Assembly: GCA_028287505.1 (NCBI GenBank) | Contig: JAQBPN010000129.1 | Span: 1-64,000, forward strand | Direction: 5' to 3' | DNA: 64,000 nt | Origin: Fibrobacterota bacterium | GTDB lineage: Bacteria; Fibrobacterota; Fibrobacteria; UBA11236 | Shown here: positions 37,198 through 43,423 of the stretch, in pieces | Layout of the letters: every line of letters begins with the position of its first letter | Position numbering within the stretch: the first letter of the stretch is position 1 | Position numbers and translations under genes: made by a program | Notes under the pieces: generated by a model | What the model was told of the DNA's origin: nothing | The model's input: only the letters and a program-made list of their open reading frames with translations | Databases searched by the model: none

Positions 37198-37321
37198 TTC
37201 CGACGATTCCGTCCTCGCGGGCAAGGGCTTGCAGCCCGTCGATTCCCCAATCGAACCGGACCCGGTAGTCGTTTTGCTTCAGGTATTCCAGGTTTGCGGT
37301 CCCCTCTGCGGCCCGGCTCAT
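37181..37321 (-). CDS. Possible 46-residue ORF downstream of the amidoligase genes
   Basis: A short reading frame with ordinary GC-rich codon choice (MSRAAEGTANLEYLKQNDYR then VRFDWGIDGLQALARED, ending GIRTRI). It starts 10 bases after the GCS2 ligase stop on the same strand and overlaps the convergent corA end by 17 bases. No ribosome-binding site is visible. It may be a small cotranscribed protein, a leftover C-terminal fragment of a lost gene, or chance. I do not recognise it. Confidence 0.25.
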   Translation of the reverse strand: MSRAAEGTANLEYLKQNDYRVRFDWGIDGLQALAREDGIVGIRTRI

Positions 37322-37331
37322 TGCGGCCGGA

Positions 37332-38609
37332 TCAGGCCGCAGAGAAGGGCTTGTCCTCTTCCAGACAATCGCACAAACGGGCATATACCGCCGGGTAACC
37401 CGCAGGTTGCGGCGCCGCCCGCAGGATCCGTTCCGCCAGATTGCCTTCCGACAGGATCAGCCCGATGGAGGGCATGAAAGCCTGGTCCGCGGCCGCCGTG
37501 CGCGAAGCCGCCAGGCTCTTGGCGCTCAGGGCCTTGATGAAGGCCCCGGTGGTGGACTGCCGGTCCACGCCGAATGCGGCGAAAGGGAATTCCGGAGGCA
37601 CGGACGCCATCATCCCGCGTTTGGCGGTGTCGAGGAAGAGGGCCCGCAGCAGGCCCGCCGGGACCTTCCGGTGCGCGGCCAGCATGTCTTCTCCCGTGCC
37701 CATGGCATATCGCAGCATGGAAGTTATCCAATGGCAGAGGGCCAGATCGGCGGTGGGACGCTCCTGCGTGTCCAGGCAGCGGATCTCGATGGTGTCCCGA
37801 TCGAAGCGGGCGATGGCGGCGCGGGAGTTGAGCCATTCCTCCTGCAAAATGCCCTGGGAATCGAAGGGGGCGATTTCGCGGAACATGGGCGCGAGGATCT
37901 TTTCCCGGTATTCTTCTTCGCTTCCCACCGCTTCCGGAACGATGTCCCCGATGATGGAAGGGAGACGGCGCTGGTTGCCGATGTAATGGGACAGGCGGCC
38001 GTCGAGCCAGCCGTGATGCGCGCCGTCATGGACGGGGCTGGAGGCCGCCAGGGCGGGCAGCATGGGCAAGAGCAGGCTGATGGCGTTGTGCAGCCGGGAG
38101 AATTCCGCGTCCCCGGCAAAAGGCAGATTGAGATGGACGCTCTGGATGTTGAACCATCCGTGGCCGCGCACGCCGAAGACGCGATGGTAGCTTTCGTAGA
38201 TGCCGCTGTCTTCATGCGGCCAGATGCGGGACTCCCGCGTGGGGTCCATGAATGGATGCATGCCGCCGGGCATGAGACGGCAGTTCCATTGCGACAAGGC
38301 CTGGTTCGCCAGCTTCACGTAAGCGGCGAAGTCCCGCGCCTGGGCGGCCAGATCCCTGGCCGGGACCTTGCACTTGAGCTCCAGGACATGGGCGGCCAGT
38401 TCATTGTCCGCTTCCACGTTTCCGGCGGCGGGATGCGAATCCGGGCTTCCGCCCAAGGCCGCGAGCAGCCGATCCGCGGAAGGATCGACCGCCAAGGTGT
38501 CCTTACGGACCACGGCGTATTCGATTTCCACTCCGAAGACCTCGAAAAGGGAATAGGACGCCGGCGCGGAAACCGGCACTGAAGCGGCGCTTCCGGAATC
38601 CACTTGCAC
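37332..38609 (-). CDS. Glutamate-cysteine ligase-like carboxylate-amine ligase (GCS2 family)
   Basis: 425 residues from GTG at 38609. The glutamine-synthetase-like fold of GCS2 is seen: FEVFGVEIEYAVVRKDTL, NVEADNELAAHVLELKCKVP, NCRLMPGGMHPFMDPTRESR, FNIQSVHLNLPFAGDAEFSR, SPVHDGAHHGWLDGRLSHYI and TIEIRCLDTQERPTADLAL. Glu and His residues for the metal-ATP site are present. Known members join glutamate to cysteine or other amines. In this operon, with an ATP-grasp ligase and a C39-like peptidase, it more probably serves a specialised peptide-bond-forming pathway than glutathione synthesis. The start lacks a good ribosome-binding site, so the true N-terminus is uncertain. Confidence 0.85.
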   Translation of the reverse strand: MQVDSGSAASVPVSAPASYSLFEVFGVEIEYAVVRKDTLAVDPSADRLLAALGGSPDSHPAAGNVEADNELAAHVLELKCKVPARDLAAQARDFAAYVKLANQALSQWNCRLMPGGMHPFMDPTRESRIWPHEDSGIYESYHRVFGVRGHGWFNIQSVHLNLPFAGDAEFSRLHNAISLLLPMLPALAASSPVHDGAHHGWLDGRLSHYIGNQRRLPSIIGDIVPEAVGSEEEYREKILAPMFREIAPFDSQGILQEEWLNSRAAIARFDRDTIEIRCLDTQERPTADLALCHWITSMLRYAMGTGEDMLAAHRKVPAGLLRALFLDTAKRGMMASVPPEFPFAAFGVDRQSTTGAFIKALSAKSLAASRTAAADQAFMPSIGLILSEGNLAERILRAAPQPAGYPAVYARLCDCLEEDKPFSAA

Positions 38610-38650
38610 GGATTCCGAGGGACTGGATCCCGACGTGGGAATCTCGGAGT

Positions 38651-40174
38651 TTATCGGACGACCTGCAGGTTGAGGAGCTTCACGATCTCGGCGGGCATGG
38701 CCGGTTCCCGGTCCTTGCGCTGCTTCAGCTTGTCGATGCGGTTGACGAACTCCTCCATGATGGTGTTGTAGAGGGTGTCCTTAAGGACCTGATCCTCCAC
38801 GCCCACGTCGATGTTGGGATTGTCGTTCACTTCCACCACGTAGGGCTTCTTGCCCACCACCTTGATGTCCACGCCGTACAGCCCGTCGCCGATGAGCTTG
38901 GCGGCTTTGAGGGCCGTATTGATGATGAAGGGCTCCACCTGGGACACGTGGTAGGTCATGTGCGCGCCCTCGCCGGTCTTCCCGTCCTGGTGATGGTTGA
39001 TGATCTGCCAATGGTTCCGGGACATGAAGTATTTGCAGGCGAACAGGGGTTTGCCGTTGAAGATGCCGATCCGCCAATCGAACTCGGTGGGCATGAATTC
39101 CTGGGCGATGATGTAATCGGAGCGCTTGAAGTACTCCTTGCACACCGAGGCCAGCTCGCCCGGATCCTCCACCTTGACCACGCCGCGCGAAAAGGATCCG
39201 TCCGGGATCTTGATGATGATCGGGAAGGAAAACTGCTCGTAGATGTCGACGACGTTGTCTTCGCTCAGGATGAAGGTCTTGGGCCGCGGAATGCCTTCCC
39301 GCTTGAACAGCTCGTTCAGGAAGATCTTGTTCGTGCAATACAGGATGGACTTCGGATCGTCGATGACGACGATCTTCTCCTTCTCCGCCTTCTTGGCGAA
39401 GCGGAAGGTGTGGTGATCGATGGAGGTGGTCTCGCGGATGAAAAGGCCGTCGAATTCCGGCAGGTGCGCGAAGTCCTTCTTTTCGATCACTTCCACGGAC
39501 AAACCGTTGTTCTTGCCGGCTTTGATGAATTTCTGGATGGCGGCATCGTCCGAAGGCGAGAACCGTTCGGTGGGATTGTGCAGGATGGCCAGATCGTAGC
39601 GCGCGGAATTGTTCTGGCGCTTGATGCCCCAGCGGTGGATGGTGAACTCCACCAAGGCTTCCAAGAACACGCCGATGTGCGACTCCGGGATGCTGTTGAT
39701 GGACATGGAACGGATGGACGTCAGGATCCACTGTTTTTCCCGGCGAAAGTAGACCTTGAAGAACGGGCAAGGGAAGAGGTTGAAGAACATCCGGGAAATC
39801 TTCTCGTACTTCTTGGAGACGTTCTTGCCGAAGTACACGGACAGCTCGTACTTGTTGTCCGTGATGTTGGCGAGATCCTTCTGTATCTGCGCGTTCAGGT
39901 CGTCCGTCTCGATGAGATAGAATTCCTTCTTCGAAAGGGCCTGCATGGTGGAGATGTTGGGCAGCACCTTGTGGCCCCGCGCCTCGGCGACGAGCGATAC
40001 GTAATAGCCCGAGCCCAGATAGCCGTAATTGTTGGCCAGGTTGATGATCTTCAGCTGGCGCAGATCCTGCCATTCCTTGCCGAAGAGATAGTCGTTCACG
40101 GAGACGAACTCTATCTGGGGGACCCGTTTTTTCCAGTGGCGGGCATTCTCCACCACGCATATGTTCCGTATCAT
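38651..40174 (-). CDS. RimK-like ATP-grasp ligase with N-terminal RLAN domain
   Basis: 507 residues. Residues 1-170 match the RimK-associated N-terminal (RLAN) domain (FVSVNDYLFGKEWQDLRQLK, NLANNYGYLGSGYYVSLVAE, ARGHKVLPNISTMQAL). The ATP-grasp part (about 190-490) has FDGLFIRETTSIDHHTFRFA, DDPKSILYCTNKIFLNELFK, SFPIIIKIPDGSFSRGVVKV (nucleotide Lys), IAQEFMPTEFDWRIGIFNGK and the metal site LYGVDIKVVGKKPYVVEVND, NPNID. Such enzymes use ATP to join an amino acid to a carboxylate, as RimK adds glutamate to ribosomal protein S6. The stop of the upstream C39-like gene overlaps its start by four bases. Function in this cassette is unknown. Confidence 0.9.
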   Translation of the reverse strand: MIRNICVVENARHWKKRVPQIEFVSVNDYLFGKEWQDLRQLKIINLANNYGYLGSGYYVSLVAEARGHKVLPNISTMQALSKKEFYLIETDDLNAQIQKDLANITDNKYELSVYFGKNVSKKYEKISRMFFNLFPCPFFKVYFRREKQWILTSIRSMSINSIPESHIGVFLEALVEFTIHRWGIKRQNNSARYDLAILHNPTERFSPSDDAAIQKFIKAGKNNGLSVEVIEKKDFAHLPEFDGLFIRETTSIDHHTFRFAKKAEKEKIVVIDDPKSILYCTNKIFLNELFKREGIPRPKTFILSEDNVVDIYEQFSFPIIIKIPDGSFSRGVVKVEDPGELASVCKEYFKRSDYIIAQEFMPTEFDWRIGIFNGKPLFACKYFMSRNHWQIINHHQDGKTGEGAHMTYHVSQVEPFIINTALKAAKLIGDGLYGVDIKVVGKKPYVVEVNDNPNIDVGVEDQVLKDTLYNTIMEEFVNRIDKLKQRKDREPAMPAEIVKLLNLQVVR

Positions 40175-40863
40175 TTTTTCGCTATCACCAAAAGGTTTTC
40201 GTCATAAGTGAGGATCCCCAGCATCACCGCGTTGGCGAACTTGGTGAAGGGAAGTTTGTAGGTTCCGGTGTCCGAGAGCGGATTCTTCCGCAAAGGGTCC
40301 TGGATGGTCACGCTGCGGGTGTGGGGATCCCATTCGGACACCACCACGAAATGCCCCACCGGCTGGCCGATGATATCATTCTCCTCGTTGTCCGAGGTTT
40401 CACGCATATGTTGATATAAGTATGTGGCGGACAGACCGCAAATGATGGGTTTGTGGTTCTTGAAAAGCCGGCTCAGCAGATCCTCGTTCAAATCGTCGAA
40501 CTTGAGGATCCCGCCTTTTTTCAGGAAGTCCTGGTAGAAGCCGATCACCTTCTTCTGTTTCTTGCTGCGGATCTTGCGCTGGCGCTGCTTCAGCTTGCTC
40601 GACAGCTCCTTGGGTCCGAGCTCTTTCCAGGTGGGATCGAAAATCTTGATGTTGTAGGTGTAGATTTCCGCGCGGAATCCGTGGGCCAGGGCGTTGCGGG
40701 CCAGGTTCACGGCCACCGTGCCGCCGGTCTGCCAGTGTTCGATTTCCTGCTTCAGCTTGTCGAGGGACGTGGGGTAATCGTGATAGTCGTAAATGGATTG
40801 GAGACAGGTTATCCCGCAACTTTCGTCGTCGGGCTGCTTGGAAACATGCAGGTCGAGCTTCAT
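40171..40863 (-). CDS. C39-like cysteine peptidase family protein
   Basis: 230 residues, no signal peptide. Papain-like C39 features: an N-terminal SKQPDDESCGITCLQSIYDY with the candidate nucleophile C16, then IICGLSATYLYQHM, the His in VGHFVVVSEWDPHTRSVTIQ and the Asp in DPLRKNP. The middle is unusually basic (ELSSKLKQRQRKIRSKKQKK). C39 domains cut double-glycine leaders, but here there is no transporter; stand-alone members beside RimK-like ligases are known as a conserved neighbourhood. It is the first gene of the cassette; its stop overlaps the ATP-grasp start. It could cleave or transfer the peptide product. Confidence 0.8.
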   Translation of the reverse strand: MKLDLHVSKQPDDESCGITCLQSIYDYHDYPTSLDKLKQEIEHWQTGGTVAVNLARNALAHGFRAEIYTYNIKIFDPTWKELGPKELSSKLKQRQRKIRSKKQKKVIGFYQDFLKKGGILKFDDLNEDLLSRLFKNHKPIICGLSATYLYQHMRETSDNEENDIIGQPVGHFVVVSEWDPHTRSVTIQDPLRKNPLSDTGTYKLPFTKFANAVMLGILTYDENLLVIAKK

Positions 40864-41914: not shown

Positions 41915-43423
41915 TTGGTCGGCATCGATCGCCCGTGCGCCATCCTTATAGTCCTGACCGCGCTGCTCGCCTCGACGTTTTCGTATTCCCGCGCGGCCGC
42001 GACCGGCGCCGCCCCGGAACGCCCGGCCCGGGCGGACGGGGCCATGTCCCGGGTAATCTCCTCGAAGTCCCCGGCCGCAACCGTAGACACGGCGGGGCCT
42101 TCCACCGTTTTGAAAAGTTTCGACTCCCTGATGGAGGCCGGTCGCTATCCCCAGGCCCGCCGCCTCTGCGCCGGTCAGATGTTGCGCATGTTCGACTTTA
42201 TCGTCCTCACGCAATCCAAAATCGCCGGCTACCTGGATAGCGCCCGCTCCCGGGAAGAGACCCTGGAGGAGAAGGCGGCCGGGGACTGGGCCTACGCCAA
42301 GATTTACGGCCGGATGGTTTTCAAACGGCCCTTCATGGGACAGGATTCCCTTACCTCCTTCCAGGCCGCCCACTTGTATCGCTCTCCGCGAGGCTGGCTC
42401 ATCACGGAAATGGAAGAATTGGAAGGGGCGGATTCCCCCGTGCATCTCCGGAGCGGGATTCCGGAAGGAGTGGACGGGACCCTGGAAGGGGCCGCCGGCT
42501 CCGCCGGTAGCGGGCCCAGGATGAACTTGTTTCCGGTTTCCTCCCGCGCCCCTGAGCGGCCGGGCGTGGCGGACCGGATCCAGTATCGTCTGCGTTTGAA
42601 AAACGGGAGCGCCCTGGCCGGGTCCTGCCCGTTGGACGGCACCCAGCGCCTCGTGCGCGCCGTTTCCCCGTCGGAGTGGATCGTGGAAAACCGGAAGCGT
42701 TCCACCCAGGGCCGCGCAACACCGGGCAAAACCGGTACGGCGCCGGGAAAGGGGAAAGCCCTGCCCGCGGATTCCGCGCGGGTGTATCTGGCCTCCAATC
42801 CCTACCTTAACCTGGAAGACACCCTGCTGACGCGGCGGGCCGGCTCCATCGCCCCGGGGGAAAGCGATCCGGCCCGCATCGCGGGAGCCATCTACGATTG
42901 GGTGGCCGGGCGATTCCGCTTCCAGATGGGTTCGGTATTGTTCGGCACCAGCAGCGAAACCATCCGCGATCTGAGGGGTGATTGTTCCGAGGCCGCCATC
43001 CTCACGGCCGCCCTGTTGCGCGCCCGCGGCGTTCCGGCCCGGGTGGCCTTGGGGTTCGCCAGCCTGGGCAAAGGGGTTTTCATCGGCCATGCCTGGTGCG
43101 AAGCCTGGCTGGACGACGGCTGGGTGGGCGTGGACGCGGCCTTGCGCGAATTTCCCGCCGGAGTGGATCGGGTGAAGCTCGCCGTACTGGACGGACGCGG
43201 GGAGCGAGCGCCCGATAAACGGGAGCGAGCCGGAGGTGAGGGCCACGGAGATATGCGCATCGCCGCCACCAATCTCATGATGCGGACCATATCCAACCTG
43301 GACATCGAAATCGTGGGCGCATGGCAAAAGGGACGCAGCCTGCCGCTTAAGGCCTATCCGGACAATTCCGCGGAAGCGGGAAAGTTCTTCCAGGAAATCC
43401 TGGACGGGATCGGGAAAAAGTAG
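41915..43423 (+). CDS. Exported transglutaminase-like protein
   Basis: 502 residues from the TTG at 41915, supported by AGAGGG 6 bases ahead and by the signal peptide it opens (GIDRPCAILIVLTALLASTF then SYSRA). The C-terminal third is a transglutaminase-like domain: IYDWVAGRFRFQMG, the nucleophile in LRGDCSEAAILTAALLRARG, the His in IGHAWCEAWLDDGWVG and the Asp in GVDAALREF. These form the Cys-His-Asp triad. The N-terminal part is unrecognised. The family includes peptidases and amide-forming enzymes that act on envelope proteins or peptidoglycan peptides. It is monocistronic and convergent with the EamA gene, with only 4 bases between stops. Confidence 0.88.
   Translation: MVGIDRPCAILIVLTALLASTFSYSRAAATGAAPERPARADGAMSRVISSKSPAATVDTAGPSTVLKSFDSLMEAGRYPQARRLCAGQMLRMFDFIVLTQSKIAGYLDSARSREETLEEKAAGDWAYAKIYGRMVFKRPFMGQDSLTSFQAAHLYRSPRGWLITEMEELEGADSPVHLRSGIPEGVDGTLEGAAGSAGSGPRMNLFPVSSRAPERPGVADRIQYRLRLKNGSALAGSCPLDGTQRLVRAVSPSEWIVENRKRSTQGRATPGKTGTAPGKGKALPADSARVYLASNPYLNLEDTLLTRRAGSIAPGESDPARIAGAIYDWVAGRFRFQMGSVLFGTSSETIRDLRGDCSEAAILTAALLRARGVPARVALGFASLGKGVFIGHAWCEAWLDDGWVGVDAALREFPAGVDRVKLAVLDGRGERAPDKRERAGGEGHGDMRIAATNLMMRTISNLDIEIVGAWQKGRSLPLKAYPDNSAEAGKFFQEILDGIGKK

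Follow-up and report, generated by a model that had tools for sequence, protein, structure and literature searches.

Two Unrelated Ligases and a C39-Like Peptidase in a Fibrobacterota Operon: A Possible Make-and-Break Cycle for a Small Capped Peptide

What might two peptide-bond-forming ligases of unrelated folds and a cysteine peptidase do together in one operon? The question is raised by a 64,000-nucleotide stretch of DNA from a Fibrobacterota bacterium (the window; positions 1 to 64,000 of contig JAQBPN010000129.1, assembly GCA_028287505.1), in which the genes for a C39-like peptidase, an RLAN-RimK ATP-grasp ligase and a GCS2 carboxylate-amine ligase form, in this order, one minus-strand operon (40863-37332; Table 1). 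Most of the sampled Fibrobacter-like genomes have the cassette, which extends across about a dozen phyla. Many unrelated bacteria share this one compact set of enzymes, in which two members probably make a small peptide rich in glutamate and one or two others probably dismantle it. Iyer, Abhiman, Burroughs and Aravind reportedly predicted in 2009 that RLAN-RimK ligases, GCS2 proteins, GNAT proteins and C39-like peptidases form peptide-modifying systems. PMC10318531 cites the 2009 amidoligase-peptidase prediction for DUF3335 peptidases fused to GNAT domains. In the open-access literature searched (most subscription papers lay outside the search), we found no paper on the cassette or its product, and none that describes the fourth gene, the nested order of presence, the splitting of the operon, the exchange of GCS2 and GNAT or the leader RNA reported below.

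Nested Presence of Two Ligases and Two Hydrolases

The first-pass annotation of the window had treated the three genes as one cassette, a view that would have failed if relatives showed no association; in relatives the association holds. With the window's ligase we found 71 loci, which we divide into type A (27 loci, with the window's kind of GCS2 and/or C39 beside the ligase), type B (41 loci, with a GNAT beside the ligase) and neither type (L024, where the ligase stands alone, and L062 and L071, which are cut by contig ends). No locus among the 71 has features of both types. The order C39-RLAN-GCS2 on one strand recurs in 18 of the 27 type-A loci, the window not counted; eight of the remaining loci are cut by contig ends and one (L023) has no C39 nearby. 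Outside Fibrobacterota, the full order is present in ten phyla, as assigned from record titles and the origins of tree rows: Bacteroidota, Balneolota, Rhodothermota, Spirochaetota, Omnitrophota, Planctomycetota, Nitrospinota, Sumerlaeota, Myxococcota and Thermodesulfobacteriota. RLAN also accompanies GCS2 in two gammaproteobacterial metagenome-assembled genomes (L023, L069).

We searched 150 Fibrobacterota genomes for each gene family, counting GCS2 and C39 at an E-value of 1e-20 and the FGase-family hydrolase, a fourth gene discussed below, at 1e-6. At least 124 genomes have a match to the RLAN query at E 0.001 or better; ligases were kept to about E 1e-30 (84 genomes), and the weaker matches, which cover the generic ATP-grasp part only, were dropped. 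GCS2 is present in 82 genomes, C39 in 73 and FGase in 68 (two of them partial). All four families occur together in 66 genomes, all but FGase in seven, RLAN and GCS2 only in nine, RLAN only in two, a partial FGase only in two, and none of them in 64. Presence is nested: GCS2 occurs only with RLAN (82/82), and C39 only with both (73/73). A full-length FGase is always accompanied by C39 (80/80; 66 in Fibrobacterota and 14 in other type-A genomes), a count that excludes the partial matches in G071 and G096, where the model is partly covered and the cassette is lacking. Among 21 type-A genomes from other groups, GCS2 is present in 21, C39 in 20 and FGase in 14, all 14 having C39. The recurring gene order at type-A loci and the co-occurrence in the 150 genomes rule out a chance neighbourhood. 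In the two Fibrobacterota genomes with the ligase alone (L103 in G008 and L104 in G092), neither GCS2 nor C39 nor FGase was found genome-wide.

The FGase-family protein (PF05013, 75.8 bits against a cut-off of 28.9) is encoded behind GCS2 in 12 of the 27 type-A loci and in none of the 41 type-B loci, and so travels with GCS2 and not with GNAT. Its profile matches the structure of Atu2144 (2odf, E 1.6e-36). Judged by gene order and co-occurrence, the hydrolase belongs to the system as its fourth member.

RLAN and GCS2 lie less than 500 bases apart in 80 of the 82 Fibrobacterota genomes. C39 adjoins RLAN in 54 of 73 genomes and is located elsewhere in 19, and in G058 the separation is probably due to contig ends only. 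Among the 18 genomes with a separated C39 that also have FGase, C39 and FGase adjoin in 15; in G018, G038 and G046 the two share or abut ends. A broken operon in Fibrobacter thus usually leaves the two ligases together and the two hydrolases together, and by this count we regard the presumed makers and breakers as separate pairs. Paraliomyxa (L024, G178) has all four genes, although its ligase gene is not located with the rest.

Type B was seen only in Pseudomonadota. This proteobacterial lineage pairs RLAN with GNAT in place of GCS2, and no FGase lies beside the GNAT. In 20 of the 41 type-B loci a DUF3335 C39 domain is fused behind the GNAT; DUF3335 is absent genome-wide from all 14 GNAT-only genomes tested and present in both of the fusion genomes tested, and by this distribution the C39 domain is optional in type B too. 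The type-A kinds of GCS2 and C39 were not found in five type-B genomes tested. The type-A C39 and the type-B DUF3335 C39 are homologous (profile comparison probability 97.2), with their Cys, His and Asp residues aligned. In a ligase tree, quickly built from 74 chosen rows with some long branches and no outgroup, type B forms one side of a single branch with 97% support in the Shimodaira-Hasegawa-like approximate likelihood ratio test, and the labels change three times in total against a shuffled mean of 25.9. As far as gene content can tell, the makers form the core of the system in either lineage and the breakers are optional, and FGase depends on C39, not the reverse.

No further member of the cassette was seen among the 60 largest clusters of open reading frames (ORFs of at least 60 amino acids, 72 loci). 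Beyond RLAN, GCS2, C39, FGase and GNAT, these clusters contain shadow ORFs, genes of close relatives and common families, e.g., ATPases of ATP-binding cassette (ABC) transporters. The first-pass annotation had proposed looking for a conserved small gene beside the cassette; among 1,780 ORFs of 20-110 amino acids within 1.5 kb of 75 type-A loci, none is conserved across lineages, the clusters comprising close relatives only; a fast-evolving precursor could be missed.

The Three Enzymes

The genes lie where they had been placed, overlapping or closely spaced: the stop codon of the C39 gene and the start codon of the RLAN gene overlap in ATGA, a sign of translational coupling as far as sequence can indicate it, and 41 bases separate RLAN from GCS2. 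The RLAN gene is present in a single copy in the 6.07 Mb genome from which the window comes. NCBIfam names none of the three operon proteins, every score being under its cut-off.

Table 1. Coordinates of the operon genes and of other features discussed in the text (window positions unless a locus or genome is given)
Feature	Location	Strand	Remarks
C39-like cysteine peptidase	40171..40863	-	230 aa; operon's first gene; Pfam match; conserved Q10, C16, H171, D189
RLAN-RimK ATP-grasp ligase	38651..40174	-	507 aa; RLAN domain 27-172; ArgX/LysX/RimK-kind fold (pre-ATP-grasp and ATP-grasp) 193-482
GCS2 carboxylate-amine ligase, YbdK/glutamate-cysteine ligase fold	37332..38609	-	425 aa; GTG start
C39 stop/RLAN start overlap (ATGA)	40171..40174	-	4 bases
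BshC homologue in the window's genome	G000:C39:100585-101589		
Leader RNA examples	L095:2953-3022; L079:2950-3016	-	directly before RLAN gene

The peptidase matches Peptidase_C39 (PF03412) with 42.2 bits against a cut-off of 22. It was said to keep its Cys, His and Asp, and so it does: these residues are C16, H171 and D189, which together with Q10 are invariant in an alignment of 23 rows. In a wider set of 39 distinct sequences, Q10, C16 and H171 are found in all and D189 in 37, the other two having Glu. The C39 profile weakly finds peptidase domains of the ComA type in a structure-sequence search. Unlike the C39 bacteriocin exporters, the protein has the peptidase match alone, with no fused ABC transporter.

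The two ligases have been described as unrelated in fold, and their structural models agree: RLAN-RimK resembles ArgX, LysX and RimK, and GCS2 resembles YbdK and plant glutamate-cysteine ligase. The RLAN-RimK protein matches RLAN (PF14401) with 151.5 bits against a cut-off of 25 and RimK (PF08443) with 40.6 against 21. Its model has a predicted local distance difference test score (pLDDT) of 83.9. The RLAN part, which RimK lacks, precedes the region at residues 193-482 that is best matched by the structures of ArgX (3vpb: Z 27.9, root-mean-square deviation [rmsd] 2.5, 266 residues aligned), LysX and RimK (7qys: Z 26.5, rmsd 2.9, 272 aligned); the sequence profile likewise matches RimK and LysX structures. 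Over 98 distinct ligases, K283 is conserved in 98, K322 in 97, R368 in 98, D436 in 97, E448 in 96 and N450 in 96, presumably the ATP and metal residues of the ATP-grasp fold. The protein scores 28.4 of 331 bits with the RimK equivalog NF007764.

GCS2 matches PF04107 with 90.2 bits against a cut-off of 21. Its model (mean pLDDT 87.8) is closest to YbdK (1tt4: Z 38.6, rmsd 2.8, 353 aligned; 1r8g: Z 38.5) and matches the plant glutamate-cysteine ligase 2gwc with Z 34.2 (rmsd 3.2, 364 aligned), an enzyme that the sequence profile finds weakly. Residues E70, E77, H150, H159, N161, R263, E275 and R277 are present in all 45 distinct GCS2 sequences, and E28 and E30 in 44 (one gap); by comparison with E. 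coli GshA we take these acidic, His, Asn and Arg residues to be catalytic. The protein thus resembles YbdK and the glutamate-cysteine ligases in fold as well as in its conserved acidic, His and Arg residues. The alignment of relatives begins at about residue 20, and the true start may lie further in than the annotated GTG.

A Possible Make-and-Break Cycle and Its Rivals

We propose, as a serious possibility that falls short of an even chance, that through the cassette the cell makes and breaks down, in a cycle, a small peptide or tail with an N-cap, probably composed of glutamate. GCS2 would cap an amino acid by linking its amine to the carboxylate of a side chain, with the gamma-carboxyl of Glu as the likeliest candidate. 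RLAN-RimK would next activate the alpha-carboxylate left free on the capped unit and extend it by at least one amino acid, in the manner of RimK, LysX and ArgX, which add Glu or a relative. The C39-like cysteine peptidase would take off the residues that RLAN-RimK had added, and the FGase-family hydrolase would cleave the cap, an N-acyl-amino-acid bond as in N-formylglutamate. RLAN would be matched with C39 and GCS2 with FGase, all four presumably acting inside the cell, and in the proteobacterial version GNAT would take the place of GCS2 as the capper. It is the nested presence and the operon split that give the scheme its concrete order, and because the hydrolases are the dispensable part we prefer two makers with optional breakers to a peptidase that matures a precursor. 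If true, the cycle would add to the known peptide metabolites or tags one that comes with enzymes for its own recycling, and it would account for the joint occurrence of four unrelated folds, those of a peptidase, two ligases and an N-acyl hydrolase. The first-pass annotation had guessed at an unusual peptide or peptide tag. The dedicated association of a peptidase with two ligases supports that guess in part; the guess was incomplete in missing FGase as the fourth member; the unusual peptide is its better half, and a tag is possible, though the neighbourhoods suggest no target. We would extend the proposal, with considerable doubt, to a widespread undescribed metabolite or tag system in which RLAN-RimK and C39 handle the peptide bond and GCS2 and FGase the N-cap, the capper was swapped once for GNAT, and the leader RNA of one Fibrobacter lineage may sense the product.

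There is partial precedent for such a cycle in known systems. In Pseudomonas, a RimK-type ligase has its own dedicated peptidase, RimB, which undoes the addition by removing RimK-added glutamates (PMC12239564, PMC11957791). RimB differs in being an aspartic peptidase and not a C39 enzyme, neither GCS2 nor FGase takes part, and the target is ribosomal protein S6. For methylofuran, MyfA and then MyfB act in sequence on one polyglutamate chain (PMC8141765); both are ATP-grasp ligases, and neither GCS2 nor C39 nor FGase is mentioned in the accessible text. RimK and MyfB need no partner to build chains of glutamate (PMC8141765, PMC6920838). ArgX and LysX, the closest structural matches of the cassette ligase, act on LysW; the search beside the cassette gave no small carrier-like gene that recurs. 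The pathway of the osmolyte N-acetylglutaminylglutamine amide (NAGGN), with its AsnO-like amidotransferase and GNAT/ATP-grasp fusion, was considered as a further comparison, and a literature search for it gave no result.

Several points weigh against the proposed cycle. Glutamate as the building block is taken solely from the relatives RimK, LysX/ArgX, MyfB, GCS and FGase, and the YbdK-like and FGase-like families are broad; the cassette GCS2 is about 15% identical to YbdK and the glutamate-cysteine ligases and scores 54.9 of the 176.4 bits of the YbdK subfamily TIGR02050. FGase was not found (E 1e-6) in the window or in any of six genomes of the window's genus; by this search the whole genus lost or never had it, and removal of the cap by this enzyme could not apply there. 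The nested counts come from genomes that share descent, so that they show association and not independent events, and some absences may reflect incomplete assemblies, although G047, G051 and G064, each with a completeness of 97% or more, have neither hydrolase. Nested presence can also be explained if C39 and FGase are accessory regulators or processors and not degraders, and the type-A order, with C39 first, is by itself no hint of a degrader. Finally, reversible protein tagging would produce much the same genomic picture.

In such tagging, which we consider possible but on the unlikely side, a cellular protein would receive residues from the ligases, at its C-terminus or on a side chain, and would lose them again through C39 and FGase. 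RimK, also as a complex with its protein substrate (5zk6), ranks with ArgX and LysX among the structures nearest to the ligase; according to the structure titles, ArgX and LysX act on LysW as a carrier protein; RimK and RimB are a published ligase-peptidase pair acting on glutamates of S6; and the RLAN domain could be the target-binding part. However, no target or carrier gene recurs by the cassette, either in the small-ORF search or among the 60 largest ORF clusters, and a RimK-type tag needs neither a second ligase of the GCS2 kind nor FGase. The same clusters bear on a builder of coenzyme side chains, which would put a glutamate tail on a cofactor as MptN, CofF and MyfA/MyfB do, with the hydrolases trimming or recycling it. 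Two ligases acting in sequence, as described for methylofuran, speak for this alternative, and the ligase does match the NCBIfam models of MptN (57.3 of 350 bits) and CofF (22.8 of 300), though far under their cut-offs. We think it unlikely, as those clusters include no recurrent gene for cofactor biosynthesis, and by record titles the taxa span rumen anaerobes to marine halophiles. We know of no cofactor shared across that range.

A low-molecular-weight thiol like glutathione would follow a familiar enzyme logic, GCS plus an ATP-grasp ligase: GCS2 would make gamma-Glu-Cys or something similar, RLAN-RimK would add the third residue and C39 would resemble phytochelatin synthase. The match of the GCS2 model to the plant enzyme 2gwc fits this idea, but the ligase falls far under the glutathione synthase equivalog NF003573 (33.5 of 272 bits), and the distribution of the bacillithiol synthase BshC is not complementary to that of the cassette, which makes a thiol product quite improbable in our view. 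BshC is present in the window's genus in five genomes out of six, all with the cassette (the homologue in the window's genome is listed in Table 1), and in four genomes labelled g2 without the cassette; none of the listed Fibrobacter genomes with the cassette has it. Bacillithiol as the missing counterpart is ruled out by this lack of complementarity. Least probable is the making of a ribosomally synthesized and post-translationally modified peptide, in which the ATP-grasp ligase would modify a precursor and C39 would cut its leader. In favour of this reading, the classical role of C39 peptidases is to cleave double-glycine leaders, and graspetides are products of ATP-grasp ligases (PMC8939145). 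Against this, the small-ORF search gave no candidate precursor conserved across lineages, there is no fused or recurrent transporter, and C39 is dispensable in both lineages, as a maturation peptidase should not be.

Leader RNA and Flanking Sequence

At Fibrobacter loci where C39 does not precede the ligase, about 65 bases before the RLAN start codon are conserved (see Table 1 for examples). This leader fits a two-helix hairpin, with 95.2% of cells paired and changes on both sides in 5 of 11 pairs, in an alignment whose rows are close relatives from about three groups and hold few independent changes. A covariance model, into which 16 of the 20 leader loci went, finds exactly one copy, with its end at the start codon of RLAN, in each of 20 genomes out of the 150, and these 20 belong to a single genus. 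C39 lies elsewhere in 17 of these genomes and was not found in the other three (G110, G124, G140). The leader RNA may regulate the ligase operon. The model finds no copy in the window's genome. The leader has no Rfam match, and no Rfam family was found in the window or in 12 cassette loci; a PrrB/RsmZ match beside the leader, with a weak E-value (18 of 44 bits), was taken as chance.

In the window, the operon is flanked on one side by genes for a DUF4412 protein and a transglutaminase-like protein, and on the other by a convergent gene for a CorA-type transporter; these genes look unrelated to the cassette. Promoter and terminator scans gave matches no more numerous than in shuffled sequence. 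Right behind GCS2 is an open stretch of 41 amino acids (37200-37322, minus strand) without a Pfam match, perhaps a gene remnant; to us it resembles the start of a 2-phosphosulfolactate phosphatase. Near the cassette, a protein with a transglutaminase core (PF01841) is encoded at 41915-43423 on the plus strand. An ORF of similar length lies at the matching position in G078 (L117), which suggests that this gene has been kept within the genus.

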